Both the position numbers and the translations under genes were made by a program. From Campylobacter showae (lineage in GTDB: Bacteria > Campylobacterota > Campylobacteria > Campylobacterales > Campylobacteraceae): a stretch of DNA of 64,000 nucleotides. Each line of letters begins with the position of its first letter. The first letter of the stretch is position 1. The stretch is from NCBI RefSeq assembly GCF_900573985.1, contig NZ_UWOK01000002.1:186001-250000 (forward strand), read 5' to 3'. The notes below the pieces were generated by a model, which ran no database searches, was not told where the DNA came from, and worked only from the letters and a program-made list of their open reading frames with translations. Shown here in pieces: positions 421 through 26,613 of the stretch.

Positions 421-441
421 ATTTAACCGATTAAAAAACCT

Positions 442-480: not shown

Positions 481-482
481 TT

Positions 483-779
483 ATGGCACAAAAGTTGCTG
501 AAACACGAGTTAGTGGAACGCCTATTAAAGCTAAAAGAAAAGCAAGATGAGCTGACGGTGCAAATGCAGTGTTTGTCACAAGAGATTAACGCATTAGCTC
601 AACCTTATATACCGAAAGAACCAAAACCGCAGCCCTTGATTACGATGCGATTAGTCGCTCAAGTCTTACGTGAAAATCCAGATTGGATGTTTTGTGGGGA
701 GATTGCTGAAAAGACCTTAGCATTGTTGGGAAAACCACAATTTGTTGATGTAGTAAATCATCAATTCGTCATAAGCTGA
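483..779 (+). CDS. Hypothetical coiled-coil protein, probably truncated
   Basis: A 98-residue frame with an ATG directly after the hairpin at 442-480. Residues 1-40 are rich in K, E, L and Q and would form a coiled coil. Residues 40-80 include a conserved-looking run around ENPDWMFCGEIAEKTL. The final dozen residues overlap the broken end of the opposite-strand transposase, so the natural C-terminus has probably been replaced by insertion-sequence DNA. I do not recognise the family. It is cargo of the transposon, and any link to the restriction-modification genes is unknown. Confidence 0.4.
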   Translation: MAQKLLKHELVERLLKLKEKQDELTVQMQCLSQEINALAQPYIPKEPKPQPLITMRLVAQVLRENPDWMFCGEIAEKTLALLGKPQFVDVVNHQFVIS

Positions 780-1484: not shown

Positions 1485-1536
1485 AGTATTGAGGTCACAC
1501 CTTTATTAAACTAATATATGAAATATTATTCATATT

Positions 1537-1560
1537 GATTGTGCATAATATATCACAATC
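1537..1560. promoter_or_regulatory. Dyad operator upstream of the regulator-methyltransferase pair
   Basis: GATTGTG (1537-1543) and CACAATC (1554-1560) form an exact inverted repeat around 10 AT-rich bases, 30 bp upstream of the HTH gene at 1591. The position suits autoregulation by that HTH protein. A ribosome-binding AGGA follows about 10 nt before the ATG. No binding data are implied. Confidence 0.55.
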
Positions 1561-1590
1561 ATTCACTTTTTTCAATAGGAATGTGAAATA

Positions 1591-1938
1591 ATGTGCATAT
1601 CAGAGCGCTTAAAGCTGGTCTTGGATGCTAAAAATATGACCGTCACTGAATTTTCTAATGTAACGGGAATCTCATATCGTTCGGCAATGAATTACTTGAA
1701 TGAGGGGCGCGATCCAAGTGTGGATGCTCTAATCAAGATCTATAATGGATTAGGAGTTAGCATTACTTGGTTACTTACTGGGAGTGGAGCAATGTTCCAA
1801 ATTGAGAATAAAGAGAGTGATATTTCAGAGCAGGAAAAGAAACTAATTTCTCATTACCGAACTATGCCAATGAGTTTAAAAGAAGCTTTTGATGTTTCTT
1901 TTAAAGAAATTTCAGATAAAATAAATTATTTAATATAG
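1591..1938 (+). CDS. HTH (XRE-type) regulator of the methyltransferase
   Basis: A 115-residue protein. Residues 1-65 form an XRE-like helix-turn-helix (recognition region FSNVTGISYRSAMNYLNEG, then ALIKIYNGLGVSITWLLTGSG), the layout of phage-repressor-like and controller proteins. The C-terminal 45 residues are charged and may mediate dimerisation. It lies 8 bp upstream of the methyltransferase and is probably co-transcribed with it. The dyad at 1537-1560 in its promoter is a likely binding site. Within the restriction-modification cassette it would time methyltransferase expression. A second unrelated-looking HTH gene sits at the other end of the cassette. Role in control is inferred from context. 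Confidence 0.75.
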   Translation: MCISERLKLVLDAKNMTVTEFSNVTGISYRSAMNYLNEGRDPSVDALIKIYNGLGVSITWLLTGSGAMFQIENKESDISEQEKKLISHYRTMPMSLKEAFDVSFKEISDKINYLI

Positions 1939-1946
1939 AGGTCTTT

Positions 1947-2981
1947 ATGTATTATGCTAATCCTAGTACCGTTGGTAGAGGTAAGAAGTTTGAGATTACT
2001 AATAAGCAAAAAAATGGTGATCATTTTTTTAAAAATGGTATAAATTTGCATTTTGGAGATAGCTTAGATTTTTATCAAGATTGGTCCACTCCAACCGTTA
2101 TAATTTCTGATGGAGCTTACGGTATTTTAGGGTTTAATGGTGATACAAGTAACCATCTATCTATTGCTGAATGGTATGAACCACATATATTAGAATGGAC
2201 AAAAAAAGCCACTAGAAGAACAACTCTATGGTTTTGGAATACTGAAATTGGATGGGCTTGTGTGCATCCTATTTTAGAAAAGTTAGGCTGGAAATATGTT
2301 AATGCTAATATTTGGAATAAAGGCAAAGCTCATATTGCAGGCAATGTAAATACTTCAAAAATAAAAAGATTTCCAGTTGTTACTGAAGTTTGTGTTCAAT
2401 ATGTATTTGAGCCTCTAATAGATGGAAAGAATTTACAGGAATGGTTACATCAAGAGTGGAAAAGAACAGGATTATCTCTTAAATCCGCTAATATCGCTTG
2501 TGGTGTTGCTAATGTTGCCTCAAGAAAATACTTGGATAAAGGACATTTATGGTATTGTCCTCCTGATGAAATGTTTGAGAAATTATCTAATTATGCTAAT
2601 TTACATGGCAATATTGAAGGGAAACCATATTTTTCTTTTAATGGAGTATCACCATTAAGTAGGCAAGAATGGGAAATGATGAAGCCTATTTTTAATTGTC
2701 CAATTGGATTCACCAATGTATGGAATAGAAATCCATTAAAAGGTAAAGAACGAATAAAGGTTCCAAATTCTCAAACTGCATCCGCTCATTTGAATCAAAA
2801 ACCTTTAGATTTAATGATGTTAATTATTGAGGCTTCTAGTTATGAAAACGATGTCATCTGGGAACCTTTTGGGGGGCTGTTTTCAGGTTCATTAGCCGCA
2901 ATGAACCTGAAAAGAAGAAGTTTCGCAGCCGAAATAGATAAGGATTACTTTTTGATCGGAGTAGAACGATTTAATACCTAA
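1947..2981 (+). CDS. Type II DNA methyltransferase (N4-cytosine / N6-adenine amino-methylase class)
   Basis: A 344-residue enzyme expected to transfer a methyl group from S-adenosylmethionine to an exocyclic amino group in the recognition site. Motif IV is SDGAYG at residues 54-59, an unusual form of (D/N/S)PP(Y/F). Motif X and motif I lie near the C-terminus (HLNQKPLDLM followed by IWEPFGGLFSGSLAA, about residues 282-325). The order IV ... target-recognition region ... X-I matches the beta class. The gene follows the regulator by 8 bp and overlaps the convergent endonuclease gene by 11 bp at their 3' ends. SDGAYG-type motif IV resembles, from memory, methylases of the AvaI group (CYCGRG), but specificity cannot be read here. 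Confidence 0.85.
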   Translation: MYYANPSTVGRGKKFEITNKQKNGDHFFKNGINLHFGDSLDFYQDWSTPTVIISDGAYGILGFNGDTSNHLSIAEWYEPHILEWTKKATRRTTLWFWNTEIGWACVHPILEKLGWKYVNANIWNKGKAHIAGNVNTSKIKRFPVVTEVCVQYVFEPLIDGKNLQEWLHQEWKRTGLSLKSANIACGVANVASRKYLDKGHLWYCPPDEMFEKLSNYANLHGNIEGKPYFSFNGVSPLSRQEWEMMKPIFNCPIGFTNVWNRNPLKGKERIKVPNSQTASAHLNQKPLDLMMLIIEASSYENDVIWEPFGGLFSGSLAAMNLKRRSFAAEIDKDYFLIGVERFNT

Positions 2982-3876
2982 TATTAAATGTTGATGAGAA
3001 TGCTCTTGCAATATCATCAACATTACCTTTTGATAAAAGTTTTGACCAATAAGATACTGTTTGATTACAAATTTTTGAATTTAAAACCCTCTCTTTAAAT
3101 GCTTCTATTTCAGGATGACTAATCCTATCTATTTTAGCGAAATTTGTATCCAACCTATATGGAAATCTAGACATTAAATCTTGTATCATTTCCTGATATA
3201 TTGGTAATGTTGGATTATGTTTATTGAATAACCCTTTCATCTCCCAATAATTGCATATATTCAAAGCCTCGTTAAATTGTGATGAAGAACCTTGAAATTT
3301 ATATCCATTAGTATTGCTTTGTTGCAAATTTACAGTGCGATTAGATGTATCTCTAGGTTCGACAATAAGATAATCAGGTGGGTTACTATAATGAAGATCT
3401 CTCATATAAGCTACTGATTTCGCAGTTATAACAACAATATCAATTATCTTGGGATAGCCAAAAATTATGTATTCAGGTAGCCACGCGACTAATACAACAT
3501 TAGTCTGCCCTTTTGTGAAATAAGATTGGCTATCTTTAAATCTAGCTGTAATTTCTGTTGATAATGGAAACCAAGCTTTAATTTCTATTCCTGGTTTGGG
3601 ATATATATGACTACAGAAAATAGTATCTGGAAATCCAGGATCCTGCCTATACCATCTACCTATAGTGTTAAATGTTGGGATAGAGTTTAAATATTCACAT
3701 ATACTAAATTCTATTAAGTTACCCATCATAGGAGATAGTTTAGAAACAATTTTTGTTAAATTAATTGCGGAGTCAATATTGTTAGGCTTAGCCAAATGTA
3801 TTGCGTCAAAAGATTTATCTTTTAACAACTTTAGATTTTCAGTTGCAATATTGAGAAGTTTGATAGTATCAGACAT
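2971..3876 (-). CDS. Type II restriction endonuclease, PD-(D/E)XK fold
   Basis: A 301-residue protein without an obvious named family. It carries a good PD-(D/E)XK signature: P-D at residues 83-84 (in DPGFPDTIF) and E98-I-K100 (in PGIEIKAWFP). Those residues would bind metal and cut DNA. The gene converges on the methyltransferase (11-bp overlap of the 3' ends). Its start overlaps the end of the small HTH gene at 3869-4105 by 8 bp, so regulator and endonuclease form a translationally coupled operon. That is the usual layout of a C-protein-controlled system. The recognition sequence is unknown. Confidence 0.8.
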   Translation of the reverse strand: MSDTIKLLNIATENLKLLKDKSFDAIHLAKPNNIDSAINLTKIVSKLSPMMGNLIEFSICEYLNSIPTFNTIGRWYRQDPGFPDTIFCSHIYPKPGIEIKAWFPLSTEITARFKDSQSYFTKGQTNVVLVAWLPEYIIFGYPKIIDIVVITAKSVAYMRDLHYSNPPDYLIVEPRDTSNRTVNLQQSNTNGYKFQGSSSQFNEALNICNYWEMKGLFNKHNPTLPIYQEMIQDLMSRFPYRLDTNFAKIDRISHPEIEAFKERVLNSKICNQTVSYWSKLLSKGNVDDIARAFSSTFNIRY

Positions 3877-4105
3877 TTTTAATTATTTTAATTAATTCTA
3901 CAGGGTCAATATCTAAAGCTTCACATATTTCAATAAACTCAGTGACTTTCAATGACCTTTCATTATTTTCATATTTTGTCACATAAGACTGGCTTCTAGC
4001 TATCCTAGAAGAAAGTTCAATTTGAGTCATACCTTTATCCTCTCTAGCTTTTTTAAGTAGAGATACTAAGGCTGAATTCTTGGATGTGTATAATGCTTTA
4101 CTCAT
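3869..4105 (-). CDS. Small HTH controller protein of the endonuclease operon (C-protein-like)
   Basis: Seventy-eight residues forming one XRE helix-turn-helix domain (KAREDKGMTQIELSSRIARS, then SYVTKYENNERSLKVTEF). This is the size and fold of restriction-modification controller proteins, which activate their own gene and the endonuclease after a delay. The stop overlaps the endonuclease start by 8 bp. An inverted CCATT/AATGG pair (4137-4141 and 4152-4156) lies about 30 bp upstream of its start and could be the operator. It differs from the 115-residue regulator, so the two arms of the cassette may be controlled separately. Confidence 0.8.
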   Translation of the reverse strand: MSKALYTSKNSALVSLLKKAREDKGMTQIELSSRIARSQSYVTKYENNERSLKVTEFIEICEALDIDPVELIKIIKNV

Positions 4106-4136
4106 AAATTAATTTTATAACGCCAAGTAAAATATT

Positions 4137-4156
4137 CCATTTTGGACTATTAATGG
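4137..4156. promoter_or_regulatory. Possible operator for the C-protein operon
   Basis: CCATT and AATGG arms are separated by 10 bases containing GGACTAT, resembling half of a typical C-box (GACT...AGTC). It is placed 32 bp upstream of the regulator start on the minus strand. The match is short and uncertain. Confidence 0.3.
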
Positions 4157-4406
4157 TAAGAAATTTAATACACTTGGAAAGGCTCTTGTTGGCAAGTTGC
4201 TTATTTTTGATAGACTGAACCATTGCTTGATATTGAAGTCTAGCGAGTTTTTCTTGAGTTTAAGGCAAGAGAATAGGTTAGCTTTAACCTTTAAAAGCTG
4301 CCCTCATTGGCTCACCCTTCTGGTTTTATTATTACATCATTACATCTACCATATACTCTTATTGAATATGTGGTGGGAAGCTATGTAATAAAATTCGGGG
4401 TTTCCA
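4157..4406. other. Non-coding stretch between controller gene and right transposase
   Basis: This 250-bp stretch, part of a 301-bp gap from 4106, has no convincing gene. A short open frame (4197-4388) shows no family resemblance or ribosome-binding site. It may hold the remnant 5' end of the right-hand insertion sequence, because the transposase remnant starts at 4407. Confidence 0.4.
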
Positions 4407-5541
4407 ATGCAACACTTCCTACTTTCCTCTAATTAGCGCACATTCAGCCTAAAAAAACATCGCGCGCTTGTCCGAAGATGAAGCCTTTAAGCTAATGAAA
4501 GGTGCTCGCTGGGGCAATCCTGACAATCTCCACGATGTCTGCTGTCCGCATTGCAACACGCGGCACAATGCCTATTTTCTAGCTTATCGCAAGCGTTGGA
4601 TGTGCAAGCATTGCAAGCGCAATTTCTGAATCACTACCAACACCGCTTTCGCCTTTCACAAATTGCTGCTGTCGGATTTGCTTATTGCGATTGCTCTGTT
4701 TGTGAATGAAATCAAAGGCATTTCCGCCATTACCCTAGGCTGACACTTGAATATTCAATACAAAAGTGCTTTTGTGTTGTGCCACAAGCTACGCGAAGCC
4801 CTATTCAAAACCCGTGATTTAAGCCCATTACAAGGTGAAATTCACGAAGATGGAGCTTGGATTAACTTCACGCTACGCAAGCCAAACTACCGTAAAAACA
4901 ACCATAAACAACGCCAACAAGCAGATGAAAAAGAACGGAAATTTCCCAAATTTAGACCGACTAAACGCTGCATTATCAGCCTTAACCAACGTTCCGCCAA
5001 TGATGAACAAATGTGGGGCTCAAACCGCACCATCGTGGCAATGGATTATACCGAAAGTGCCAACACCATATTCGCCTTAAACCAACGTTTCGTCACCGCT
5101 GGCAGCGATATTATGTGTGATGAAAACCCTGCCCATAACAACCTTGATTTTCATTACACACGTTGGTCGGTAAACCATCAAGAAGCCTTTAGTGCCAAAG
5201 GCATAAACAACAATCTCGCAGAATCCTTTAACGCACGTTTCCGCGATTTACATCGTGGCGTACATCATAAAACCGATAATAAATACGCCTTACATTACGC
5301 CAATCAAGCGGCATTCTTTTCAGATAACCGCCGTAAATCCAACAGGGAACTCTTTGAAGATGTACTCAAGCGTTGCCTGTGGGTATTGCCACTTAAAGAG
5401 TGGGTGGGCTACTGGCAAGGGAATCACCGTCAAGGTGAGTTAATCGGAATGAAAGCCTTTGCCCCCGAAGAGATTTCACAAAACTACTTCAAGCGATTAG
5501 AAGAACAAATGAAGTATGATGAAATGCTGTTAGCTGCGTAG
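4407..5541 (+). pseudogene. IS1595-family transposase, broken by stops and a frameshift
   Basis: Starting at the ATG at 4407 the translation reads MQHFLLSSN, then a stop. After a one-base frame change it runs IARLSEDEAF, a zinc ribbon (CPHCNTRH ... CKHCKRNF), a TGA at 4627, and another TGA at 4741. From 4747 it is open to 5541. It contains the catalytic landmarks HEDGAWI, CDENPAHNNL and NNLAESFNARFRD of the DDN-type IS1595 transposases. The C-terminus ends about 215 bp before the right inverted repeat. It is homologous to, but not the same as, the left copy at 717-1484. The long open 3' part suggests fairly recent decay. Confidence 0.85.
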
Positions 5542-5757
5542 ATTGCAATAGCCTTAGCGATATTTCATCAAATTTAAATAGAAAGGGATAATTAGCTTAC
5601 CGAAATCACGGTCGAGCGGATTTCTCACGCCTAAATCAGCGGAAAATGAAGAATTTGCGTGAAAAATCGCGTAGAATTTCAGGAAAAATAAATGCCTTTT
5701 ACAAGATCATCTCGGAAAGGCATTTAATTTATAATGCGACGTTAGTCAATTTTCGGA

Positions 5758-5783
5758 CTTTGTGCAACTGCTACATAATACCG
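5758..5783 (-). repeat. Right terminal inverted repeat of the transposon
   Basis: Exact 26-bp reverse complement of 395-420, ending ATAATACCG at the outer edge and abutting the 8-bp duplication. Confidence 0.9.
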
Positions 5784-5803: not shown

Positions 5804-8800
5804 GTTCTAAACTTCCAATACTTTATTTAAAACGGTTTCGACAAAAAATAGGGCACAGTTTGAGGCACACGTTCTAAACTTCCAATACTTTATTTAAAAC
5901 CAGGGCACTCAAGCCAAATCAGCGACAAGCACTACTAGTTCTAAACTTCCAATACTTTATTTAAAACGCGGTAGCGGTAGTCGTGATAAACTCCGCTACC
6001 CATTGTTCTAAACTTCCAATACTTTATTTAAAACACGAAACAATACCGTTTTAAAATACAAATAAGGGGGCTGTTCTAAACTTCCAATACTTTATTTAAA
6101 ACTATTTTTTGGAGATAAATATGAAACAAATGGATTATCTGTTCTAAACTTCCAATACTTTATTTAAAACAAATCTACCTCACGAGCGAGGATATACAAG
6201 AATTCCGTTCTAAACTTCCAATACTTTATTTAAAACTTTATCGTAGATCAGTATTTTTGCCCCATCCATATGTTCTAAACTTCCAATACTTTATTTGAAA
6301 CGTTAGCGCGACGCCGTATTTTTCTAGCAGGGGCTATTCTAAACTTCCAATACTTTATTTAAAACAATATCGGCTCTAGTGTTTGCGAACGCAAAATGCT
6401 AGTTCTAAACTTCCAATACTTTATTTAAAACCAAACTACGTCCTAAAATCGCAGCTAAGCTCTTATACGTTCTAAACTTCCAATACTTTATTTAAAACAT
6501 ACTCAAAAGACCGCTACACAATCTAGGCGCAGGCGTTCTAAACTTCCAATACTTTATTTAAAACTTTAAGCGTCCAAAAGAGGTGAAATTTTATTCTAAG
6601 TTCTAAACTTCCAATACTTTATTTAAAACTTGTTATAGCTTATGGTTGGGCTGCTTTTAGACTTAGTTCTAAACTTCCAATACTTTATTTAAAACTTCCA
6701 GGATTGCCGACTAGGTAGGTTATCATAATGTTCTAAACTTCCAATACTTTATTTAAAACTCTCGGGATCGGTTATGGGATTTTGCAAATTTTTAAGTTCT
6801 AAACTTCCAATACTTTATTTAAAACTTCAAAATTTACAACAGCTCTCTTGTTTTCATCAGCGTTCTAAACTTCCAATACTTTATTTAAAACTATAGGCTC
6901 AAGTCCTTTGTTGCAAAGCGTTGAATGTTCTAAACTTCCAATACTTTATTTAAAACTATAGGCTCAAGTCCTTTGTTGCAAAGCGTTGAATGTTCTAAAC
7001 TTCCAATACTTTATTTAAAACAATAGCGGCATGTATAATAATTGCATTCGGCATAAGTTCTAAACTTCCAATACTTTATTTAAAACACGCTACGCGCCGC
7101 ACGACACACATTTTTAGATTAGAGTTCTAAACTTCCAATACTTTATTTAAAACCGAGTCTGTTCAAAAAGTGTATATGGATATGGCATAGTTCTAAACTT
7201 CCAATACTTTATTTAAAACTATGCATAGTTATTGTGAAGATTCAAGCGGTAACACGTTCTAAACTTCCAATACTTTATTTAAAACAAGATGATGTCTTTT
7301 TATAGTTTTAGATGTCATGTAGTTCTAAACTTCCAATACTTTATTTAAAACCGTCTTTCGGACGCGTCGCAATATGAACCTTTATTTGTTCTAAACTTCC
7401 AATACTTTATTTAAAACCGGGCGTCCCGGCTTTTCTTTTATTGGCCTTGCGAGTTCTAAACTTCCAATACTTTATTTAAAACGCTTCTCGGTATTTTGAT
7501 TTTGCACTGGCGCGACGAGTTCTAAACTTCCAATACTTTATTTAAAACTGGTTTGTAGTATCGTTTTGATAGGTTGGTCGGCTCGTTCTAAACTTCCAAT
7601 ACTTTATTTAAAACCTCGTATTTATCGGGGTTTGATTTCATATCGGCTTGTTCTAAATTTCCAATACTTTATTTAAAACAGCAGCTAGGTTATTCAGCGT
7701 TTCATCTAGCTGCGCAGTTCTAAACTTCCAATACTTTATTCAAAACATCATTTTAAATTCCTTTCTATCTTGTTTGTTATATGTTCTAAACTTCCAATAC
7801 TTTATTTAAAACCTATATGCTTTGCTATGATAACCTAGAGTGCCATTAGTTCTAAACTTCCAATACTTTATTTAAAACGATATACAAAGGCAAAAAATGG
7901 CTTTTAAAGACTCGAGGTTCTAAACTTCCAATACTTTATTTAAAACACGTAAACGAGCTAGGACGAAGCGTAACCGGAGCGTTCTAAACTTCCAATACTT
8001 TATTTAAAACGAGGTAGCAAGAGATATAAGAGCCTCTTTGCGTAGGAGCGTTCTAAACTTCCAATACTTTATTTAAAACCCTGGATAGAGGACGTAAAAG
8101 AAATCAAAGAGATGAGTTCTAAACTTCCAATACTTTATTTAAAACCAAGCATTCGCGCTATCTTGCTTTGCTCATCCGTGTTCTAAACTTCCAATACTTT
8201 ATTTAAAACTTGTATGTTTTTTAGGACGGCGATAAATAAAATAAGTTCTAAACTTCCAATACTTTATTTAAAACATAGTATTTTAGTGCCCACTCGTCGG
8301 GGCTGATAAAGGTTCTAAACTTCCAATACTTTATTTAAAACTGTTTCGACAAGCTCGTAGAAAAATATCTCCTAAAAGTTCTAAACTTCCAATACTTTAT
8401 TTAAAACGCTCACGGGCCTAATCGCCGCAAACTCCTCAAACGGTTCTAAACTTCCAATACTTTATTTAAAACCAATTATTGCTCCGCAGAGCCCATTTTT
8501 AGGGGGGTTCTAAACTTCCAATACTTTATTTAAAACACTTATCTAAAATTTGCTCCAAAATATTCATCTTTTTGTTCTAAACTTCCAATACTTTATTTAA
8601 AACTGAAAAATTATCGTTGATGTGCTTTGCAATGCCGTTAGTTCTAAACTTCCAATACTTTATTTAAAACGGAGCTTTGCCCTCTTTTAGAGAGCCTAGC
8701 GCTTCTTTGTTCTAAACTTCCAATACTTTATTTAAAACTTTTATGCGCCGCAGAATTTGCGCGTGGATGCCAGTTCTAAACTTCCAATACTTTATTTAAA

Positions 8801-9792
8801 ACAGCAAATTCTCGGGGTATTGCTCTTTTAGCGTGTCGAGTTCTAAACTTCCAATACTTTATTTAAAACCGACGCTATAACCCCGCATCAGGCGCGAAAC
8901 GGCGAAAGTTCTAAACTTCCAATACTTTATTTAAAACGAAGCCGAAATCGCGCTAAAAATAAGGGAACAAGAGAGTTCTAAACTTCCAATACTTTATTTA
9001 AAACTTGTTAGCGGGATAAAAAATTCTAACGTCAAAACAAGTTCTAAACTTCCAATACTTTATTTAAAACTCAATCTTATTTGCAATTAATTTATTATTC
9101 TTTATATAGTTCTAAACTTCCAATACTTTATTTAAAACCGTCGGGTTGGCAAGAACCAACAGGAGAAACAGAAGTTCTAAACTTCCAATACTTTATTTAA
9201 AACACGACATCAGCGATTATCTTTACGACTTCGCCTTGTTCTAAACTTCCAATACTTTATTTAAAACTCGCCTCGCAGACCAAATTCCCTAATTTCTCGA
9301 TATGAGTTCTAAACTTCCAATACTTTATTTAAAACTAAATATCGGTTCCGAGATCGACAAAAACGGTACAGAGTTCTAAACTTCCAATACTTTATTTAAA
9401 ACTGAAAGCTTTGGTATCAAAAGCTTTGTTTTGCACGTTCTAAACTTCCAATACTTTATTTAAAACGCCCGACAATAGTAGGTTTTATACGCAAACTTAT
9501 GTTCTAAACTTCCAATACTTTATTTAAAACAACGAGGGATTAAAAATGATATTACGGTATATTGAGTTCTAAACTTCCAATACTTTATTTAAAACAATGA
9601 ACTGACTATATAAAGCCGATTATTGCAAAAAGTTCTAAACTTCCAATACTTTATTTAAAACAATACGCCAGCAGACATAGCACAAGACTTATGCGAGTTC
9701 TAAACTTCCAATACTTTATTTAAAACGCAAGCGTTTTTAACGGCGGCGTCTACTGCAAAGAAGTTCTAAACTTCCAATACTTTATTTAAAAC
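5804..9792 (-). CRISPR. Main CRISPR array, 61 repeats (63 including the displaced pair)
   Basis: The 30-nt repeat starts GTTCTAAAC and ends TTTAAAAC on the plus strand. I counted 61 copies here with spacers of 34-39 nt. Single-base variants occur at 6272 (TTTGAAAC), 6336 (first base A), 7650 (AAATTT) and 7717 (TTCAAAAC). The spacer at 6892-6926 is repeated exactly at 6957-6991. I infer leftward transcription for three reasons. The csf operon upstream reads leftward into it. A TATAAT box on the minus strand (9840-9845) lies in the AT-rich flank. The terminal arms of the repeat RNA pair through a U-G wobble only in that direction (the plus orientation gives a C-A mismatch). No adaptation genes accompany it. 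Confidence 0.97.
6892..6991. repeat. Duplicated spacer within the array
   Basis: The 35-nt spacer 6892-6926 (starting TATAGGCTCAAG) is repeated identically at 6957-6991 with one repeat between. This is most simply a local repeat-spacer duplication by recombination. Confidence 0.95.
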
Positions 9793-10061
9793 AGCACTCA
9801 ATCTACGCAATATAGGTAAAAATTAATTTTTTTGACAAGATTATATACATTAAAAATAGCTTAATGCACACATGATCTTTTTGCATTTTCCCCTATGAGT
9901 AGATGTTTAATAAAGCTTTAAAAAAGCTTTATTGAGTTCTTTCAAATATTTTTTATTTTTTCTAAAAAATAAAAAAACTCAATTAAATTTTAAAATTTCA
10001 TAAAACTATTTAAAACATTTTAATTAACAATAATAAGTTAAATAACTTGACTACTATAGAA
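9793..10061 (-). promoter_or_regulatory. Probable CRISPR leader
   Basis: A very AT-rich, gene-free stretch between the last repeat and the csf operon. A minus-strand TATAAT (9840-9845) would start transcription close to the first repeat. Further right is a hairpin built from AATAAAGCTTT and AAAGCTTTATT (around 9911-9935) and long A and T tracts, usual for a leader. The -35 region is weak. The assignment rests on position between cas genes and array and on the -10 match. Confidence 0.55.
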
Positions 10062-10092
10062 ATATACTCGGTATATTTTGAGCCGAGTATAT
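10062..10092. terminator. Hairpin after the csf operon
   Basis: ATATACTCGG (10062-10071) and CCGAGTATAT (10083-10092) form a perfect 10-bp stem with an 11-nt loop, 11 bp beyond the csf2 stop codon. It probably ends the leftward csf transcript before the leader. The following U-run is weak. Confidence 0.6.
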
Positions 10093-10103
10093 CAATTTAA
10101 AGT

Positions 10104-11114
10104 TTAAAATTTAGAAATAAGCTCTATATTTTCTTTGGTGGCTTTTTTTAGAAATTCAGAATAAGCCATGTATGCCTCTTCAAATTCGTTTTTAAGTTTT
10201 ACGCTCAATTCAGCATTAAAGATATAGCTGTTGTCGCTTGATCTTTGCATTGTTAAGCTCGTACTTTTGTTTGCATCTTCTATACGTATATCGATAACTC
10301 CAAATCCTATGTTTTGACTAGATCCGAGTCGGCCGTTTTCTATAAAACCTTCAAGGGCGTGCAAGAACATCCCTAACTCGAGTTTTGACACTTTTTCTAA
10401 GAAAAAGCCACCGTTAAAAGTTGCTCCAGATACTATATATTCCCTTTGGGCGAAGTGCTGAATTGACGATTTTTTGGTTTTCGTATCTTCATTAAAAGAT
10501 TCAGTTGTCTCTTTTGCAAGTTTTTTAGCGTCGCGGTCTTTTTTGCGTGCTTCAGAGTTTTCCTCAACGCTTTTTTCCCAATCTTCGATCTGTTTTTTTG
10601 TATAAAGTTGACTAAATTTAGTTCCCATCAAAATATCGTCTACCTTGACAAAAGTTTGCCTTCTGACTAAATTTTTAGCATTTTCTTTATCTTCAGGAAT
10701 AGCGTCTGCTACTTTTAATTTTCCAGCTATTAGTATGCCTGTGCCAAATAGCGATAAAATCGGATTTTTTTCTCTGATTTCTTCAATTTCTTTAAATTTA
10801 AGCCCTGACTTACTTGCGCCGCTACCGCTTAACATTGCGTGAAGATCAGTGTCTTTTAGCTCCTCGATCTTGTCATTTTCTTTTACGGCATCGACTAGCT
10901 TTTTTGTTGCCAAGCGGCGCAATAATCCCCTAATGCCGTTTGCAGGCAAATAAGGGGTATAGTCTATTTTTACGTCACTGCCGTCTTGATTAACTGCGGC
11001 CGTTTTTTTAATGCGCGTTACAATGTTTCCGCCTGGCTCGGTATCATTGTTTTCAATGATTGCGATTGGGCTAACTGTCTTGATGGTCAATTTGATTTTG
11101 TAGTCTTTTAGCAT
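10104..11114 (-). CDS. csf2: Type IV CRISPR backbone protein Csf2 (Cas7-like)
   Basis: A 336-residue RAMP protein expected to polymerise along the crRNA and form the backbone of the effector complex. Near the N-terminus it has YLPANGIRGLLRRLATKKL (about residues 55-73), the Cas7/Csf2 type of RNA-binding start. Near the C-terminus it has LEGFIENGRLGSSQNIGFG (about residues 254-272), a glycine-rich RAMP loop. Residues 165-215 are a highly charged insertion. It follows csf5 by 18 bp with a strong ribosome site (AAGGAGAAG) and is last in the operon, ahead of the hairpin at 10062. Csm3-like or Cmr-like RAMPs are alternatives. The absence of cas10 and the presence of a DinG gene favour Csf2. Confidence 0.78.
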   Translation of the reverse strand: MLKDYKIKLTIKTVSPIAIIENNDTEPGGNIVTRIKKTAAVNQDGSDVKIDYTPYLPANGIRGLLRRLATKKLVDAVKENDKIEELKDTDLHAMLSGSGASKSGLKFKEIEEIREKNPILSLFGTGILIAGKLKVADAIPEDKENAKNLVRRQTFVKVDDILMGTKFSQLYTKKQIEDWEKSVEENSEARKKDRDAKKLAKETTESFNEDTKTKKSSIQHFAQREYIVSGATFNGGFFLEKVSKLELGMFLHALEGFIENGRLGSSQNIGFGVIDIRIEDANKSTSLTMQRSSDNSYIFNAELSVKLKNEFEEAYMAYSEFLKKATKENIELISKF

Positions 11115-11132
11115 AACTTCTCCTTTTGGGTT

Positions 11133-11804
11133 TTATTTTTTAATATCTATTTTGGTGTTTTGCAATAATTGTCCATAGCCTAGGCCGTTTTTGTATCCTA
11201 TCATCTCCGGGAGCTGATAGTTGGATGTAAAATTTGCCCAAAGCCCTATATAGTTGATATTTTCTTTATACTTTTCTGTAATAATTCTAAAGTCCTTAAA
11301 ATTTAGAATAAGATTTTCAAAATTTTGCTTAAATTTAGTATAGCATTCTAGTTGATAAGATAAATTTCTTTTTATTCTATATGAAATATAGTCTTGAATT
11401 TTCTCATTTTTTTCAAAATAGTATTTCATATTGTGTTCAATTTTATTTGCAGTTATTATGATTGGCGTTCTAGTAGAGTACTCTATCGTTTGAGACCCGA
11501 GATAAAACGGCGGCATATATCCGTCTTCTTTCGGAATTATCTTTTTTATTTTTCTACCAAAAAAGTCATTTTTGTGTTGCTCAAGCTTTTCCATAAGATG
11601 TTGAAACGCGAAGAAATTATTTTCATAAAAAAGAATTTCAATAGCATATTTGAACGGTTTTTTATATATAATTGGCGGTGCGTCGCTACCATGATACATG
11701 ATTATATCGTTAAATTTTTGCTCTGTAATAGAGCCGCAAAAGTTACGTACGTCTCTAGGCTTTATCTCGCTTACGTCTTCGCTAAATGTCAAAACTATAC
11801 GCAT
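11133..11804 (-). CDS. csf5: Cas6-like crRNA endonuclease, Csf5
   Basis: A 223-residue RAMP protein with the C-terminal glycine-rich loop GYKNGLGYGQLL (residues 203-214) that marks Cas6-family RNases. The N-terminal half holds a histidine in IIMYHGSDAPP (about residue 38) that could be catalytic. Cas6/Csf5 cuts the precursor CRISPR RNA in each repeat and often stays bound to the 3' hairpin. The terminal arms of this repeat can pair, giving such a hairpin. The ATG shares a base with the stop of the upstream csf3-csf1 gene (TAATG), so the two are translationally coupled. Cas6 of type I or III is an alternative family label. The place in the operon supports Csf5. Confidence 0.68.
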   Translation of the reverse strand: MRIVLTFSEDVSEIKPRDVRNFCGSITEQKFNDIIMYHGSDAPPIIYKKPFKYAIEILFYENNFFAFQHLMEKLEQHKNDFFGRKIKKIIPKEDGYMPPFYLGSQTIEYSTRTPIIITANKIEHNMKYYFEKNEKIQDYISYRIKRNLSYQLECYTKFKQNFENLILNFKDFRIITEKYKENINYIGLWANFTSNYQLPEMIGYKNGLGYGQLLQNTKIDIKK

Positions 11805-13240
11805 TATTGTTTTTCTCCTATTGTAAGAATATAAGCTCCGACTCTAACGTCTTTGCTATATTTTTTGTAAAAGTCGCTAATCGCTTGGATAGACTCTTTG
11901 TTTTTTGCTTCTTTTTTTAAATTTATAAAAGGGGAGTCAATTTGCGGATTAGGTATAAGGTGGCTTTTTGTTATCGGATGATTTTTAATCATCTCTTCAA
12001 CTCGCTTTAGGCACTCTTTGGCTTCTTCGTAGCCAAAATAATAAGTTTCGTTTCCGTATTGGCAAGCTATAAAATCTTTCGAGAGAGTTAAATTTGATTT
12101 AAAAACTACGTGTTGATTATTTGGCGTAGTTTTAAGTGCCAAATTAAAAGGCAACGAGGCATCCTGGATAGCCTGCTCTATGCTTTTGGTTTTATTCTTC
12201 CCCATAACATAGGTTATGCCGTTTTTATCAACTATGTGAAAGCCTAAAGCTTTTTTACCTACTCTACTATTAACGCCGCACTGGAGCGTCCAAAAAGTCT
12301 GCTTTGATATAAATTTGGATTTATTCAAAAAAGCGTAGTCGGTAAAGGTCGAGCCAATCGTTTTTTCTATACTTTTGCATAAAATTCCCTCTTTGGAGTG
12401 CTCTCCCGAAAATGCGCAAAGATGCGGTTGTCCGTCGATAATTAGATCTTCTTTGTTTGCCTTTTCTTTTAAATTTATCTCTTGCCAATTAGCCTTATCT
12501 GCATGCAAAACGTCATATACGAAATTTATAGCCGAGTGATATTCGTTTAAACACTTTTCGTCGATGGCCGGTTTTTCTTTACCCAGATAAATAGTTTCTG
12601 TTAGAGATGAATTTGGCATATAGCACGCCTCTTTTGTCCAATTCGCCCAATAAGGAACTCTGCTATTGTAGTAAGTGATCCTAGCGTTTTTTAAAGACGG
12701 GTAGTTTTTTACGCTGATCGGGCGCGCCGGAGTATTTTCGGCTAAAAGTACGGACTTGTCGTCAGCGATCGTTTCTACTATAAAAGAAGAAACTCGCCCA
12801 TATCCAATAGCTGTTTTTTTGCCTAAAAATTTTAGATCCTGCAAGAGATCTTCGATGATCTCTTTTTCCCCTCTAACGTAAAAATATATTTTAGGAGTCT
12901 TTAAAAGCTCGTTCCAAATATTATAGGCTTTAAATTCGCCGCTACCCATGCTATATTCTATTTTATTTGCTCTATGCTCGTTAAGATACTCATATTCGGG
13001 TTTTTTAACGATACATCGGTTTTCAAGCGACACCTGATCGTTTTTTTCTACGAACCAAATAGATCCGCAATAGCCGTCTTCATATTTTTCTATAAAATCA
13101 AAATCGTAGAGTTTTTCGATTTCGATATTTTTACCAAAGTGTCTCTTGACATAAAGATTGACTAAAATAGAGTCAATCGTGCTAAATCTGCCTATTAGTA
13201 AAGGACTGTCAAGAAAAAAGGATATTTTTAAATTTTCCAT
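11804..13240 (-). CDS. Fused Csf3 (Cas5-like) and Csf1 protein
   Basis: A 478-residue protein, first in the operon. Residues 1-215 look like Csf3/Cas5: start LKISFFLDSPLL, a basic glycine loop GKKTAIGYGRV (140-150) and RVPYWANWTKEACYMP (about 194-209). Residues 225-478 look like Csf1, the putative large-subunit analogue. The Csf1 part has HLCAFSGEHSKEGILC followed by GSTFTDYAFL. The zinc-binding motif appears incomplete: C275-A-F-S has serine where CxxC would need cysteine, with the next cysteine at 288. Csf1 and Csf3 are normally separate proteins in type IV-A, so this is a fusion. It has a good AAAGGG ribosome site and a promoter at 13273-13302, and overlaps csf5 by TAATG. Domain assignment is from motif memory only. 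Confidence 0.68.
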   Translation of the reverse strand: MENLKISFFLDSPLLIGRFSTIDSILVNLYVKRHFGKNIEIEKLYDFDFIEKYEDGYCGSIWFVEKNDQVSLENRCIVKKPEYEYLNEHRANKIEYSMGSGEFKAYNIWNELLKTPKIYFYVRGEKEIIEDLLQDLKFLGKKTAIGYGRVSSFIVETIADDKSVLLAENTPARPISVKNYPSLKNARITYYNSRVPYWANWTKEACYMPNSSLTETIYLGKEKPAIDEKCLNEYHSAINFVYDVLHADKANWQEINLKEKANKEDLIIDGQPHLCAFSGEHSKEGILCKSIEKTIGSTFTDYAFLNKSKFISKQTFWTLQCGVNSRVGKKALGFHIVDKNGITYVMGKNKTKSIEQAIQDASLPFNLALKTTPNNQHVVFKSNLTLSKDFIACQYGNETYYFGYEEAKECLKRVEEMIKNHPITKSHLIPNPQIDSPFINLKKEAKNKESIQAISDFYKKYSKDVRVGAYILTIGEKQ

Positions 13241-13272
13241 TTTATCCCTTTCTTTTTTTTAAAAATTACGAT

Positions 13273-13302
13273 ATTATATAATTATAAATTAAGTTTTGTC
13301 AA
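13273..13302 (-). promoter_or_regulatory. Sigma-70 promoter of the csf operon
   Basis: On the minus strand TTGACA (13302-13297) and TATAAT (13278-13273) are spaced 18 bp apart, about 33 bp upstream of the fused csf gene. The same 103-bp gap must also hold the divergent csf4 promoter. For that gene I see only AT-rich -10-like runs and AAAGGAA before its ATG. Confidence 0.7.
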
Positions 13303-13343
13303 TATTAAAAGAAAAATAACTCGATTAATAAAAGGAATAAACA

Positions 13344-15167
13344 ATGGAACTTAGGCCTGAACAAAAAGATTTCGTCGATTATGCGGCAGATATGATAAAA
13401 GAAAACAAATATTGTGTTTTCGAGATGCCTACGGCGTTTGGTAAAAGTTTTTCGGCTTTAATGCTTGCAAAGAAGCTGATTGATGAAAAGACGGCTCAAA
13501 GAGTAATAATAGCTACTAGCAATAATTCTTTAGCTAAAAGTATATTTCTTGAAGCTAAGGCGGTCAAAGATATGCCAGACTATGTGTTAGGAATCGGCAA
13601 AAGTAACTATTTAGATTTAGATAAGCTTGCTATTTTTATGGACTCGGAAATTGGCTCCGAAATTTTACCTTTAAACAAGGAGATAGTTGAAGCAACTGTT
13701 AAAAAACTAACAATAGATTTTCCTGATATCCTAATAGAAGATTTTTTAAACGAGTTAGACATAGTCGATATCAATAAACGAGAATATATCGCCAGCAACC
13801 TTGCGCTTGAAAAAAGCAATAGCGAAAGCTTTAAAGAATATTCTATTCAAGTTACCAATTATTCGTTTTTATTTTATAAATTTATGTTTAATGAAAAGTA
13901 TGCAGAGTCTGAAGATACCGCTTATATTTTTGACGAAATCCAGGAACTGCCTAATATGGCTGAACTAACCCTAAACTCGTCATTTTCTTTATATGGTTAT
14001 TATTTGCAGTTAAAAACGATCGCAAAAATAATTCGCGACAATCCTAGCGCACCTAAAACTTTAGTTAAGTTGTTGGACGAAGAGGTTGAACTCGTAAAAA
14101 GCATAAACGAGATCATGCTGGACGAAAAAATGGCTGGTAAAACACTAATTTCCAACGAGTCGGTTATACAAAGAAAAGCAGCAGGTGTTTTGAATAAGCT
14201 TTTTGGTCAGGAAAAAAACAAAGCACTAAGAGCCAAGCTAAATAAATTTTATAAAAAAGACCCTTTTTTTCAACTAGGCATTTTTCTAAATAAATTTGAC
14301 GACGTCAAAAGCACCTTGTGCTCTAAGGATCTTTATGCAAGCTTCTCACAAGAAAGAGGATTTATATCGTTTCATACATATGATATGGATATAAAGCTTA
14401 AGCTGGCCGATAAATTTTGGAGCAAAATAGATCGATTTGTAGGCATAACGGCTACAGCTTTACTTACCCAAGACGACTTTGAACTTGAAATTTATAAACG
14501 CGTGGGTATAAACTTTAGCGAAATAAAACTCGGAGATAGAGTGATTAAAGAACGAAAATCTAAAGTATGGCCTATAATATCTTTTAAGGGAATTTTACGC
14601 CCAGAGCAAGCGACCTATTCGATTACCGACAAAGCCTTCATCGAAGAAGACGAAAAAAGGTTTGAGTATTTTGCTGATGAAATTTTGCGATGCTACGATG
14701 GCAAAAATACTATGGTATTAGTGGGCGGCTTTGACGAGGTGAAGCTCCTAGCCCAAAAACTTGAAAGCGTGAAAGACAAACTAGTCTTAGCCGAGCAAGG
14801 AAAAAGCGTCCAAAACGTTATCGAGAGTTTTAAGAAAAGCGGCGGCATTTTAATAGCCACCAGAAATTACGCTACTGGTATAAATTTAAAAGGGGATGCG
14901 CTTGAAAGGCTTTTTATAACAAAATTGCCTTATCCAGTTCATACAACAAAAAAATGGGCTATTTTAAAAGAAAAAAATGATAGATTTTTTTGGTTCGAAT
15001 ATACAAATGAGATGGTTATGACCTTTAGGCAAGCCATTGGGCGCCTTATTCGATCTCCCGAGGATACTGGCAAAATATTCTTGCTTGACGGCAAATTTAA
15101 TTCCCTAAGCGAAGGATTAAAGAAGAGGTTGATTTTTTTCTTAGAAAAAGTGGCAGTAAAAGAGTAG
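13344..15167 (+). CDS. csf4: DinG-type helicase Csf4 of the type IV CRISPR system
   Basis: A 607-residue superfamily 2 (XPD/DinG-like) DNA helicase. Walker A is PTAFGKS (residues 29-35), motif II is DEIQ (197-200), and motif VI is QAIGRLIR (about 563-570, in TFRQAIGRLIRSPEDTGKIF). Motif V-like GILIATRNYATGINLKG precedes it. The region between motifs I and II has no cysteines, so the iron-sulphur cluster of classical DinG is absent, as is known for Csf4. In type IV-A the helicase is needed for interference and moves 5' to 3' on single-stranded DNA. The gene is divergent from the csf3-csf1, csf5, csf2 operon and starts after AAAGGAATAAACA. It is not part of a general repair operon, which supports the CRISPR role. 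Confidence 0.82.
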   Translation: MELRPEQKDFVDYAADMIKENKYCVFEMPTAFGKSFSALMLAKKLIDEKTAQRVIIATSNNSLAKSIFLEAKAVKDMPDYVLGIGKSNYLDLDKLAIFMDSEIGSEILPLNKEIVEATVKKLTIDFPDILIEDFLNELDIVDINKREYIASNLALEKSNSESFKEYSIQVTNYSFLFYKFMFNEKYAESEDTAYIFDEIQELPNMAELTLNSSFSLYGYYLQLKTIAKIIRDNPSAPKTLVKLLDEEVELVKSINEIMLDEKMAGKTLISNESVIQRKAAGVLNKLFGQEKNKALRAKLNKFYKKDPFFQLGIFLNKFDDVKSTLCSKDLYASFSQERGFISFHTYDMDIKLKLADKFWSKIDRFVGITATALLTQDDFELEIYKRVGINFSEIKLGDRVIKERKSKVWPIISFKGILRPEQATYSITDKAFIEEDEKRFEYFADEILRCYDGKNTMVLVGGFDEVKLLAQKLESVKDKLVLAEQGKSVQNVIESFKKSGGILIATRNYATGINLKGDALERLFITKLPYPVHTTKKWAILKEKNDRFFWFEYTNEMVMTFRQAIGRLIRSPEDTGKIFLLDGKFNSLSEGLKKRLIFFLEKVAVKE

Positions 15168-16369: not shown

Positions 16370-17581
16370 CTAATATAAAAACCCAAATAGCCACAGCGGG
16401 ATTTTATTGCCACTTCCGACTTCTATATCGTCGGCTACTACGTACGAGTTTTGTACGTCCTTGATCTGCTCAAAGCTCTTTTTGGTTCCGCCCGCCTCAA
16501 AGGTAAATTTATCATCTACGATGAAGTCGCCTTGCTTGTTCAACATAAGCAAATCTGTTTGAAATTTTCCGGCCTTATAGGCGCTTATTTGATTTACAAA
16601 AAAGCTCTCTCTCAAGCTTCCGATATTAGGCGAGATACTTAAGGTATAAGCTAGGTTCGTATTGCTTAAGTAAATTTTATCCGGCTTTAGTATGGCGTTA
16701 TATCCCCTGCTTTTGCTAGTTAAATTTATTATAAGACCTGCGCTTTGCATATATCTTAGGTATTCGATAAGAGTAGGCCTAGATATTTCGCACGCCCTTG
16801 CCAGCTCGCTTATATTTGGGCTAAAAGGAACGCTTTGACTTAGTAAAAACAGTAGCTTTTTTAGCTTATCTATATTTGCGTAGTTTAGCGAGCAAACATA
16901 CGGGATGTCGCTTTGCAATACTTGATTTATCACGCCCGTTAGTTTAGAGTGAAAGCCTATTTTATCGTTTGCAAACGGATATGCTCCGTGAGTTAGATAG
17001 TCTTTAAAATATATGAACGGCTTAAATTTGCCAGTTAAATTTACGGCTATTTCATAGTGATTTTCCAAAATTTCATCTAGGCTATATTTTTTGTATTCGC
17101 TTTTTAAATTTAGATTTAAAAACTCTCTAAAAGACATGTTGTTTAGATGATACTTTACCGCTCTCCTGCTTAGATCGGCCCCGTTTATATCAAGCTCTAG
17201 CATAGACGAACCAGTGATTACGAGTTTTAGATTGCTTTGGTCTATGATGGTTTTTATATGAGACAACCAATCTTTTAGCTTGTGTATCTCGTCTATCAAA
17301 AGTAATTCGCCGCCCACTTTTTCGAAGTCGAGCGCGAATTCATAAAGAGACGTCGCTGCGAATAAGGGATTGTCCATGCTTATATAAAGGGCTTTTTGCG
17401 AAGCTTGGAAATTTTGTTTTAGGTATTGTAATATTAACGTCGTTTTACCAACGCCGCACTGCCCTAATATCATTACGGCTTGTTCACTAAAATCTATATC
17501 GTCGTAAAGATATCTTTTAAAATCAAGCTTCACTTTTCTTAGATAGTTTTGCTGCTCATTAAAGAATCTCGTAAAGTCCAT
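16370..17581 (-). CDS. AAA ATPase with DUF4143-type C-terminal domain (1)
   Basis: I take the ATG at 17581 (MDFTRFFNEQQ) as start, giving 403 residues. A longer frame to 17671 adds 30 residues of low quality. Walker A is GQCGVGKTT (about residues 43-51) and Walker B LLLIDEIH (about 109-116), then a sensor-like ITGSS. A winged-helix region (ELARACEISRPTLIEYLRYM) and a C-terminal nuclease-like DUF4143 end (GDFIVDDKFTFEAGGTKKSFEQIKD) follow. Such AAA_14/DUF4143 ATPases are abundant in bacteria and of unproven role. A paralogue lies at 20918-22099. A vestige of another copy's 3' end follows at about 17662-17700. No operon partner is visible. Confidence 0.82.
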   Translation of the reverse strand: MDFTRFFNEQQNYLRKVKLDFKRYLYDDIDFSEQAVMILGQCGVGKTTLILQYLKQNFQASQKALYISMDNPLFAATSLYEFALDFEKVGGELLLIDEIHKLKDWLSHIKTIIDQSNLKLVITGSSMLELDINGADLSRRAVKYHLNNMSFREFLNLNLKSEYKKYSLDEILENHYEIAVNLTGKFKPFIYFKDYLTHGAYPFANDKIGFHSKLTGVINQVLQSDIPYVCSLNYANIDKLKKLLFLLSQSVPFSPNISELARACEISRPTLIEYLRYMQSAGLIINLTSKSRGYNAILKPDKIYLSNTNLAYTLSISPNIGSLRESFFVNQISAYKAGKFQTDLLMLNKQGDFIVDDKFTFEAGGTKKSFEQIKDVQNSYVVADDIEVGSGNKIPLWLFGFLY

Positions 17582-17661
17582 ATGCGTTCTTTTATTCAAA
17601 ATTGTTAAGTATATTTTACAATTATATATAATATTTGTCAAACACAATATCGTATTAATAT

Positions 17662-17700
17662 AACAATCCAAATAGCCACAGTGGGATTTTATTTCTCACC
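17662..17700 (-). pseudogene. Vestigial 3' end of another DUF4143 ATPase gene
   Basis: The run CCAAATAGCCACAG followed by GGGATTTTATT (about 17668-17693) nearly repeats the 3' end of the ATPase gene at 16381-16408, coding KIPLWLFG. Nothing else of the gene remains, so this marks an old tandem copy removed by deletion. Confidence 0.55.
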
Positions 17701-20917: not shown

Positions 20918-22099
20918 CTAATACAACAACCCAAACATACACAGCGGTATTTTATTGCCGCTTCCGACCTCTATCTCATCGGCAGCTATATATGAGTCTG
21001 AGATATCTTTTATCTGCTCAAAGCCCTTATTTTTTCCGCCCACTTCAAATATAAATTTATCATCCACGATAAAATCGCCTTGCTTTGGGATATTTAACCT
21101 ATGTTTTACCTTTAGTTGATTAGCAAAAAAAGTCTCTCTTATTGTGCCCGCCTTACAATCATCGCCGTAAGCGTAAATTAAATTTGTATTATTCATATAT
21201 ATTTTTGCCGGTTTTACTAGCTTACTAAACCCCCTGCTTTGCTCATCTACCATGTTTACTAGTCTTGCATCGTTTAAATAGGCAATATAATCATATAGTT
21301 TGGCTCTGCTTATCTCGGCAAGAGCTGCGATTTTAGTATAATTCACCTCAAACGGCTCGCTTTGGCAAACTACTTCAAGCAGTTTTTTAAGCTTATATGT
21401 GTATTTTTGCTCAACTAGCCCCAGGGACGTTAGATCTACGTCTATGCTTAGATTAATCGTATTTAGCAAGCTTTCGTAGTATGAGCTTTGCTTATTAAAG
21501 TAAAATGGATAGTAGCCAAATTTGAGATATTTTTTAAATTGATTTTGCTTTATTTTTAAGTCATCTGCTATTGCTTGATGGTCTTTTAGTATCACTTCTA
21601 GTCTAAATTTATCTATTACTATACCGTTTTCAAGCTCCAAAAACTCCCTAAAACTAAGTCCTTCTAGGCTAAATATGCTAACTCTACGCGATAAATCACT
21701 CTTTGCATTTAGTATACTTACCGCTGATGAGCCTATAAAAATGACGTTTAAAGGGCTCATGTCGTATATAGTTTTTAGATGTGCGGCAAAATCTTCGTAT
21801 TTATGCACTTCATCTAGCAACAGGTATTCGCCGCCGCTATCTACAAACTCAAAGGCAAGTTCACTAAGACTAGTAGAGCCCAAAAACGGATAATCAAGAC
21901 TTATGTATAGAGCCTTTTTGTTTTGAGCTTTTAATTCAATCAGCTTTTGAAAAAGCATTGTGGTCTTACCGGTACCACGGGCCCCTACTATACCGATAAG
22001 CTTTTCGTTAAAATCGATTTCATTATATAGATAACGCTTGTATGTCGTATTAAAATTTTTAAGAAATCTTTCTTGATACCGCTCTATTAAATTTAACAT
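20918..22099 (-). CDS. AAA ATPase with DUF4143-type C-terminal domain (2)
   Basis: I choose the ATG at 22099 (MLNLIERYQERF) because AAGGGAT precedes it at the right distance. The frame extends to 22156 without a ribosome site. The protein is 393 residues. Walker A is GARGTGKTT (about 37-45), Walker B YLLLDEVH (about 102-109), then FIGSSAVS, a winged helix (KIAALAEISRAKLYDYIAYL) and the C-terminal GDFIVDDKFIFEVGGKNKGFEQIKD. The last 60 residues are close to those of the paralogue at 16370-17581, while the ATPase parts differ more. Function is unknown. Confidence 0.82.
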   Translation of the reverse strand: MLNLIERYQERFLKNFNTTYKRYLYNEIDFNEKLIGIVGARGTGKTTMLFQKLIELKAQNKKALYISLDYPFLGSTSLSELAFEFVDSGGEYLLLDEVHKYEDFAAHLKTIYDMSPLNVIFIGSSAVSILNAKSDLSRRVSIFSLEGLSFREFLELENGIVIDKFRLEVILKDHQAIADDLKIKQNQFKKYLKFGYYPFYFNKQSSYYESLLNTINLSIDVDLTSLGLVEQKYTYKLKKLLEVVCQSEPFEVNYTKIAALAEISRAKLYDYIAYLNDARLVNMVDEQSRGFSKLVKPAKIYMNNTNLIYAYGDDCKAGTIRETFFANQLKVKHRLNIPKQGDFIVDDKFIFEVGGKNKGFEQIKDISDSYIAADEIEVGSGNKIPLCMFGLLY

Positions 22100-22340
22100 T
22101 TTTATCCCTTTATGTAATTGTCTATAAACGTAGACAATATTGAAACATGTTAGCATGAAATTTTTAAATTGTCAACGTCTATGAACGATTACAGTTTTTA
22201 TTATTTTCCAATCGACGGAACTTAGTTCAGGTGGTTTTTATTGTAAATGGCTATATACATTTACATCCAGTTTAAAAAAATCAGAGTTATTTCTATTGCT
22301 ATATTAAGAAATATATTAGTTGTTTAAGGAGGGCGGCAAA

Positions 22341-26610: not shown

Positions 26611-26613
26611 GAA

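Follow-up and report, generated by a model that had tools for sequence, protein, structure and literature searches.

Which kind of CRISPR-Cas (clustered regularly interspaced short palindromic repeats and associated genes) system is formed by four cas-like genes in a stretch of Campylobacter showae DNA, and against what is it directed? The stretch analysed, hereafter the window, has 64,000 nucleotides (contig NZ_UWOK01000002.1, positions 186,001 to 250,000). An original prediction, made from the sequence alone, had reported genes for a Cas7-like protein, a Cas6-like protein, a 478-residue protein joining Csf3-like and Csf1-like halves and a divergent DinG-type helicase, and had placed them in type IV, perhaps in subtype IV-E or in a new variant. 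Judged by its sequence, the locus is a complete canonical type IV-E CRISPR-Cas system and a further example of an already described subtype. Together with its own array, it probably serves in the CRISPR RNA (crRNA)-guided, nuclease-free and DinG-driven silencing of competing plasmids. Subtype IV-E was reportedly first defined by Pinilla-Redondo et al. in 2020.

Gene content and subtype of the locus

The analysis covered the 64-kb window, and open reading frames (ORFs) of at least 70 amino acids were listed between 5 and 22 kb, part of them being named. All four genes were found as open frames where the original prediction had placed them (Table 1), and each was matched over nearly its whole length by a PADLOC profile, that of IV-E for the fusion, the helicase and Cas6 and a general type IV one for Cas7, which agrees with the tentative naming of IV-E. 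The best IV-A model for the helicase reached 1.9e-47, far behind the IV-E model, and the helicase also matched CasDinG of a solved IV-A3 complex (1.9e-11). The IV-E model was the only type IV Cas6 profile matched by Cas6, for which no match was obtained in Pfam at a useful E-value, in NCBIfam or in the PDB. The TTGACA-18-TATAAT site in front of the operon was the sole match to all 12 consensus bases between 9600 and 13500; promoter-like sites of all grades numbered 18 in this interval against 12.9 +/- 3.9 in shuffled sequences, not clearly above them.

As had been predicted, cas10, cas3, cas1 and cas2 were not seen beside the operon among the listed ORFs, and a tblastn search of the whole window with Cas1 and Cas2 from a distant IV-E locus (described below) gave nothing. 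Best matches to Csm or Cmr proteins, or a cas10 gene just beyond the operon, had been named as possible refutations. The Cas7 protein does match Csm3 (2.3e-10), as an RNA-targeting, type III-like effector might; the type IV Cas7 profile is far ahead, type III profiles being far weaker throughout, and, with a Csf1-like half and DinG present, the ORFs listed around the operon showed no cas10. Membership of type III was rejected, and such an effector is given next to no probability.

The locus shares with type IV-E the Csf3-Csf1 fusion, csf2, the IV-E Cas6 and DinG, an array and the lack of adaptation genes seen in the window. It differs in its long array of 63 repeats, split by an insertion sequence (IS), and in nothing that defines the subtype. 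Some distant IV-E loci carry an adaptation module, so its absence may not define the subtype. The proposal of a new variant was not borne out: both the fusion and the divergent helicase are covered by the PADLOC IV-E models, and a variant with fused csf1 and csf3 is already in print, as passages of PMC8175902 indicate.

A related cassette is that of the Campylobacter concisus plasmid pICON (NZ_CP021643.1), which has the same gene order and orientation, including the divergent DinG, with 81.6% identical DNA over 9566-15160 and 81-91% identical proteins. This cassette is plasmid-borne, and it differs from that of the window in having another repeat sequence and a shorter, degenerate array; pICON is itself matched by a spacer of the window (W13, below). 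When the Cas6 proteins of the window, of pICON and of a metagenome-assembled genome (MAG) were aligned, H38 and a C-terminal G-rich loop were common to all three, and one may guess at H38 as the catalytic residue.

Type IV-A resembles the locus in the folds of Csf2, Csf3 and Csf1, in Cas6, in a DinG-type helicase with a vestigial iron-sulfur (Fe-S) domain and in plasmid targets. In IV-A, however, Csf1 and Csf3 are separate, and the profiles of IV-A Cas6 (Csf5) and DinG gave far lower or no scores with the window proteins. Membership of IV-A was rejected on account of the fused gene and of the IV-E model as the sole type IV match of Cas6. Subtype IV-D, in which RecD takes the place of DinG according to the consulted part of PMC11127173, was also rejected, since the helicase of the window is of the DinG type.

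The predicted lack of Fe-S cysteines was confirmed: the helicase has three cysteines in total (24, 326 and 450) and therefore no four-cysteine Fe-S cluster. As a novelty this was rejected, because passages of PMC10450177 describe the Fe-S domain of CasDinG as vestigial and the loss of its cysteines as usual. The window helicase has no counterpart of the N-terminal domain of about 100 residues found in CasDinG of Pseudomonas aeruginosa, its chain opening at once with the helicase core, and in this it is like CasDinG of Klebsiella, which lacks that domain in the same source (PMC10450177, in the parts consulted).

Table 1. Position and evidence of the features of the type IV-E locus and of the inserted element (window coordinates).
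Feature	Position	Strand	Description	Evidence
csf2 (Cas7, 336 aa)	10104-11114	-	predicted crRNA-binding backbone subunit	PADLOC Csf2_0_IV 1.9e-61; TIGR03115 5.2e-29 (below cut-off); PF03787 RAMPs 3.7e-11
cas6, IV-E type (223 aa)	11133-11804	-	putative crRNA-processing endoribonuclease	PADLOC Cas6_1_IVE 1e-95
csf3-csf1 fusion (Cas5-Cas8, 478 aa)	11804-13240	-	predicted subunits for handle capping and reading of the protospacer adjacent motif (PAM) in a single chain	PADLOC Csf3-Csf1_0_IVE 1.3e-231
csf4/CasDinG (607 aa)	13344-15167	+	IV-E type helicase, divergent from operon	PADLOC Csf4_3_IVE 2.9e-247; PF13307 2.7e-24
Promoter-like site of cas operon	13302-13273	-	TTGACA-18-TATAAT	12/12 sigma-70 consensus bases
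Leader	9793-10103	-	AT-rich, between csf2 and array	promoter-like site 9838-9809 (-) reading into array
Main array	5804-9792	-	61 repeats of 30 nt, 60 spacers of 34-39 nt	crRNA-sense repeat (minus strand) GTTTTAAATAAAGTATTGGAAGTTTAGAAC
Leader-distal array end	275-372	-	2 repeats around 1 intact spacer (305-342), severed from the main array by the IS element	exact copies of 30-nt repeat
Spacer W42	8473-8506	-	target on C. concisus plasmid pTJ3 (3.8 kb), directly next to iteron-like direct repeats that lie upstream of rep	33/34 bases
Spacer W13	6565-6599	-	target in AAA-ATPase gene on C. concisus plasmid pICON	30/35 bases
IS1595-type composite element, 5,389 bp	395-5783		inside a spacer	26-bp perfect terminal inverted repeat, 8-bp target duplication AAGAAAAA
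IS1595-type transposase genes	717-1484; 4747-5541	-; +	flanking the restriction-modification genes of the element	PF12762
DNA methyltransferase gene of element	1947-2981	+		PF01555
Type II restriction enzyme gene of element	2971-3876	-		REase_II 4.6e-44

CRISPR array and leader

The interval originally delimited does hold the four genes; it begins directly after the system's own array of 63 repeats, which it omitted. In total, the array comprises 62 spacers, of which 61 are intact (one is doubled, leaving 60 unique) and one is split. Since the repeats of pICON, which share the strand of its cas operon, are regular next to csf2 and degenerate far from it, the interval between csf2 and the array was taken as the window's leader, and crRNAs were assigned to the minus strand. 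The promoter-like site of the leader has 10 of 12 consensus bases, a match to the consensus only. A 9-bp stem can be formed by the crRNA-sense repeat (-3.3 kcal/mol), and 8 of 200 shuffled sequences folded equally well; the pICON repeat can form a stem of -5.1 kcal/mol, with the same proportion of shuffles (8/200), and two MAG repeats have no such stem. At 6892-6991 a spacer and its repeat are exactly duplicated (spacers at 6892 and 6957).

The IS1595-type element has inserted into the array and takes no part in the working of the CRISPR system. With the element removed, the split spacer has a normal length of 34 nt, and the insertion lies between the last two spacers. A search of the plasmid collection with the element gave nothing useful. 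Because the final intact spacer and a fragment of a second one are cut off from the leader by the element, the locus might be regarded as a decaying relic that no longer works; the element lies, however, near the leader-distal end and leaves 60 spacers joined to the leader, 59 of the 63 repeats are identical and the other four differ by one base, and the four genes are open and match the PADLOC profiles as described above. Loss of function is accordingly judged very improbable.

Spacer targets

Plasmid records (72,556) and phage records (50,697) were searched with the 60 spacers of the main array, a set that stopped short of the spacer at 305-342 and the split spacer; 61 spacers of the window were also compared with the fetched loci, the pICON side being represented there by 11 spacers (its degenerate repeats were missed). 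Convincing targets were obtained for two of the 60 unique intact spacers, W42 and W13, both on C. concisus plasmids, with bit scores of 60.0 and 42.1, respectively, against 38.2 for the best of 60 shuffled sets. The iteron-like region of pTJ3 at the W42 target is presumably a replication origin. The peptide encoded by W13 equals that of pICON at 10 of 11 residues, and this single difference points to a pICON relative as the probable true target. The two plasmids co-occur in at least one isolate, as stated in the consulted part of PMC12844130. Both protospacers are flanked on the 5' side by TTTTA, which at two AT-rich sites is no more than suggestive of a target motif.

Being antisense to its target gene, the W13 crRNA could pair with the mRNA, as the type III-like effector considered above would have it, whereas the W42 crRNA has the same sense as rep and lies upstream of it, so that it cannot pair with rep mRNA.

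Three sets of weaker matches were rejected. W31 matched pICON with 32.2 bits, inside the range of the shuffles. A 20-mer of W52 occurs in two viral contigs, yet just 23 of the 35 spacer bases agree there, and W52 was not accepted as phage-targeting. Plasmid matches with E-values of 0.03-0.3 were not taken as protospacers; the Acinetobacter and Aliarcobacter rows, which were inspected singly, overlie repeats.

Several observations weigh against silencing of plasmids as the task of the system. For 58 of the 60 unique spacers no target was found; three mismatches of W13 fall at the 5' end, which is the seed side; the TTTTA flank was read from two targets only; the array of pICON itself, compared with plasmids and phages, gave no convincing target, only matches with E-values of 0.1 to 0.4 besides pICON; and an IV-E effector complex was not found among solved structures. 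Phages may also be among the targets, the spacer search having been confined to plasmid and phage collections, outside the Campylobacter chromosomes and their prophages. The same IV-E system might then act mainly in phage defence or in the control of host genes, the plasmid matches being a minority, and the 58 spacers left unassigned by a search of these collections would be in keeping with this. In the 50,697 phage records, however, no convincing match was found (one match, E 0.03, covered 41 nt spanning a repeat into a spacer). The mean G+C content of the spacers (0.41, the 5.4-kb insert being counted in as one spacer) is above that of the window (0.34), and a natural IV-A1 crRNA acts on a chromosomal target in the parts of PMC11551745 consulted; against this, no spacer matched the remainder of the window over more than 14 bases, and 20-mers from three of the 60 spacers, compared with 2.9 million viral contigs, occurred in 0, 0 and 2 contigs, the last two being those of W52. 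Phage defence or host-gene control as the main job is considered unlikely.

Fused Csf3-Csf1 protein

Profile search and structure prediction had been proposed as checks of the fusion, and both upheld it. In one open frame, the N-terminal half resembles Csf3 (TIGR03116, residues 68-207) and the C-terminal half Csf1 (TIGR03114, residues 273-453); neither NCBIfam score reaches its curated cut-off, which is unsurprising in a divergent subtype. The PADLOC IV-E fusion model covered residues 1-477 with all its 479 positions, and both halves were also matched by profile search of solved structures. The AlphaFold model of the whole protein was confident (predicted local distance difference test score, pLDDT, 90.8), and Foldseek matched it to solved Csf3 and Csf1. 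The C-terminal half folded alone, without alignment, had a pLDDT of 36.0, so that its fold match rests on the whole model and on the sequence. Among the best 50 matches listed, the VIA structure listing held Csf3-side matches only. The role of the large subunit would fall to the Csf1 half.

Homologues were collected among proteins of 0.55-1.75 times the query length, a range that shuts out unfused relatives. The CxxC pairs of the Csf1 half were both present in 25 of 40 fusion proteins and both absent in 15, a single pair occurring in none; the CxxC-less state of the window is thus shared by 14 of the 39 other proteins, among them its ten nearest relatives. The first cysteine (C275 in window numbering) is invariant in 40/40 proteins, hence not all zinc ligands have been lost. 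A tree was made from 48 rows including eight of the nine genome rows (all eight with both CxxC pairs), with the CxxC columns kept in and long branches flagged. Three changes of the CxxC trait were needed on this tree, two of them forced by well supported branches, and the direction of gain or loss was not readable. Nothing useful came from searching the phage collection with the fusion protein, viral contigs with an alignment of the fusion, or genome contigs with the query sequence alone.

According to the consulted part of PMC11519345, IV-A complexes grasp the PAM with two elements, a Cas5 (Csf3) loop and the zinc-finger domain of Cas8 (Csf1). These two subunits are united in IV-E as a single chain, and we infer that reading of the PAM has been remodelled in the subgroup of the window.

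Proposed mode of action

Plasmid silencing by the IV-E effector can be set out in steps for which the gene identities, gene order, array, fold match and two plasmid protospacers were observed directly. Transcription of the array would run leftwards from the leader next to csf2, and Cas6 would cut the transcript into crRNAs. Csf2 subunits would coat the crRNA, with the Csf3-Csf1 fusion capping its 5' handle and reading a short 5' motif on the target DNA, TTTTA or part of it if the two targets are representative. The later steps are carried over from work on type IV-A: an R-loop would form, DinG would be loaded onto the displaced strand to unwind or strip the DNA, and replication and transcription of the target would be blocked without a nuclease. 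The targets would be competing plasmids. As neither cas1 nor cas2 was seen in the window, the acquisition of spacers would have to depend on Cas1-Cas2 acting in trans.

Distant type IV-E loci with cas1 and cas2

The fusion family was also found in metagenome genomes of one phylum (8 of 30 searched), with DinG, csf2, cas6 and arrays. In two of them, type-II-like cas1 and cas2 genes lie on the contig and strand of the fusion (L028 3074-4308, G025:C79; L029 10535-11769, G018:C124). They adjoin cas6 and an array, and the locus has two arrays of 36-nt repeats. Cas1 scored 291 bits with the type II model TIGR03639 (cut-off 120) and Cas2 75.9 with TIGR01573 (cut-off 24.5). The two loci have 100% identical cas1, cas2, cas6 and fusion, 98% identical DinG and 97% identical csf2, and, being near-identical, represent one event. 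The G018 locus adjoins conjugation genes, of the traC, trbI, traK, traE and traL types. Cas1 was detected anywhere in six of nine genomes or records searched and on the contig of the fusion in two. A search for Cas9 by RuvC_III detected 0 of 14 controls; a TIGR01865 search of eight genomes, perhaps incomplete, gave a single match above the cut-off, to a G003 frame of 139 residues, while G018 and G025 had no match above it. A IV-E locus with cas1 may be new, no account having been met in the literature searched, which lay outside the subtype-defining papers.

Genomic setting

The original prediction had described the site as chromosomal-looking, which was not established: a related cassette lies on the plasmid pICON, and the window has further pICON-like stretches, leaving a chromosomal setting unproven. 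Besides the cassette, the window and pICON have in common an integrase (31275-32264, 87.5% protein identity) and several short stretches. On pICON (L006), a 34-residue second copy of the 3' end of a tyrosine-integrase gene lies directly behind the distal array end (24817-24918), followed by a HicA/HicB pair and then by the intact integrase, the type also found in the window.

More defence or toxin-antitoxin-like genes (CBASS, HipA, HicB, Fic and zeta-type; CBASS, cyclic oligonucleotide-based antiphage signalling system) lie between 16 and 32 kb. A CBASS-like pair at 25297-27234 consists of a SMODS cyclase (PADLOC 4.6e-173) and a SLATT_6 effector with two transmembrane segments. HipA, zeta-type and two Fic genes follow one another at 23682-30755, one Fic resembling PADLOC SoFic (1.7e-39). 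Two genes for AAA_14/DUF4143-type ATPases (16370-17671 and 20918-22156) match PADLOC PDC-S01, and related 38-nt sequences at 16371, 17656 and 20919 may be recombination scars.

From 33 kb onward a type VI secretion system (T6SS) is encoded (33295-61668, with DotU, TssK, sheath, IcmF and Hcp). Its TssK is 92-98% identical to metagenome proteins, 81% to that of a Campylobacter sp. MAG and 63% to that of C. concisus, and the DNA of the T6SS half gave nothing useful against the plasmid collection. A large protein in this region (53911-57597) has no Pfam match and contains GHSLGG, which we take to be a lipase-like motif.

Implications

Type IV systems silence plasmids without cutting them, and IV-E has hardly been described. 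Since targets and a candidate motif accompany the compact and complete IV-E cassette of this locus, plasmid interference could be tested at once. The coordinate presence or absence of the zinc-finger cysteines of Csf1 offers a natural experiment on PAM reading in which Cas5 and Cas8 are one protein. More tentatively, and at somewhat less than even chances, IV-E may be a full plasmid-borne adaptive weapon: a conjugative-element lineage would have captured type-II-like Cas1-Cas2 and two linked arrays and would make its own memories, and the Campylobacter lineage would borrow Cas1-Cas2 for its 63-repeat array, with the fused PAM reader remade, zinc-less, for a TTTTA-type motif and aimed at the replication regions of rival plasmids, including carriers of IV-E. 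The linked Cas1-Cas2 of the distant IV-E locus, if true, bears on how type IV systems acquire their spacers.

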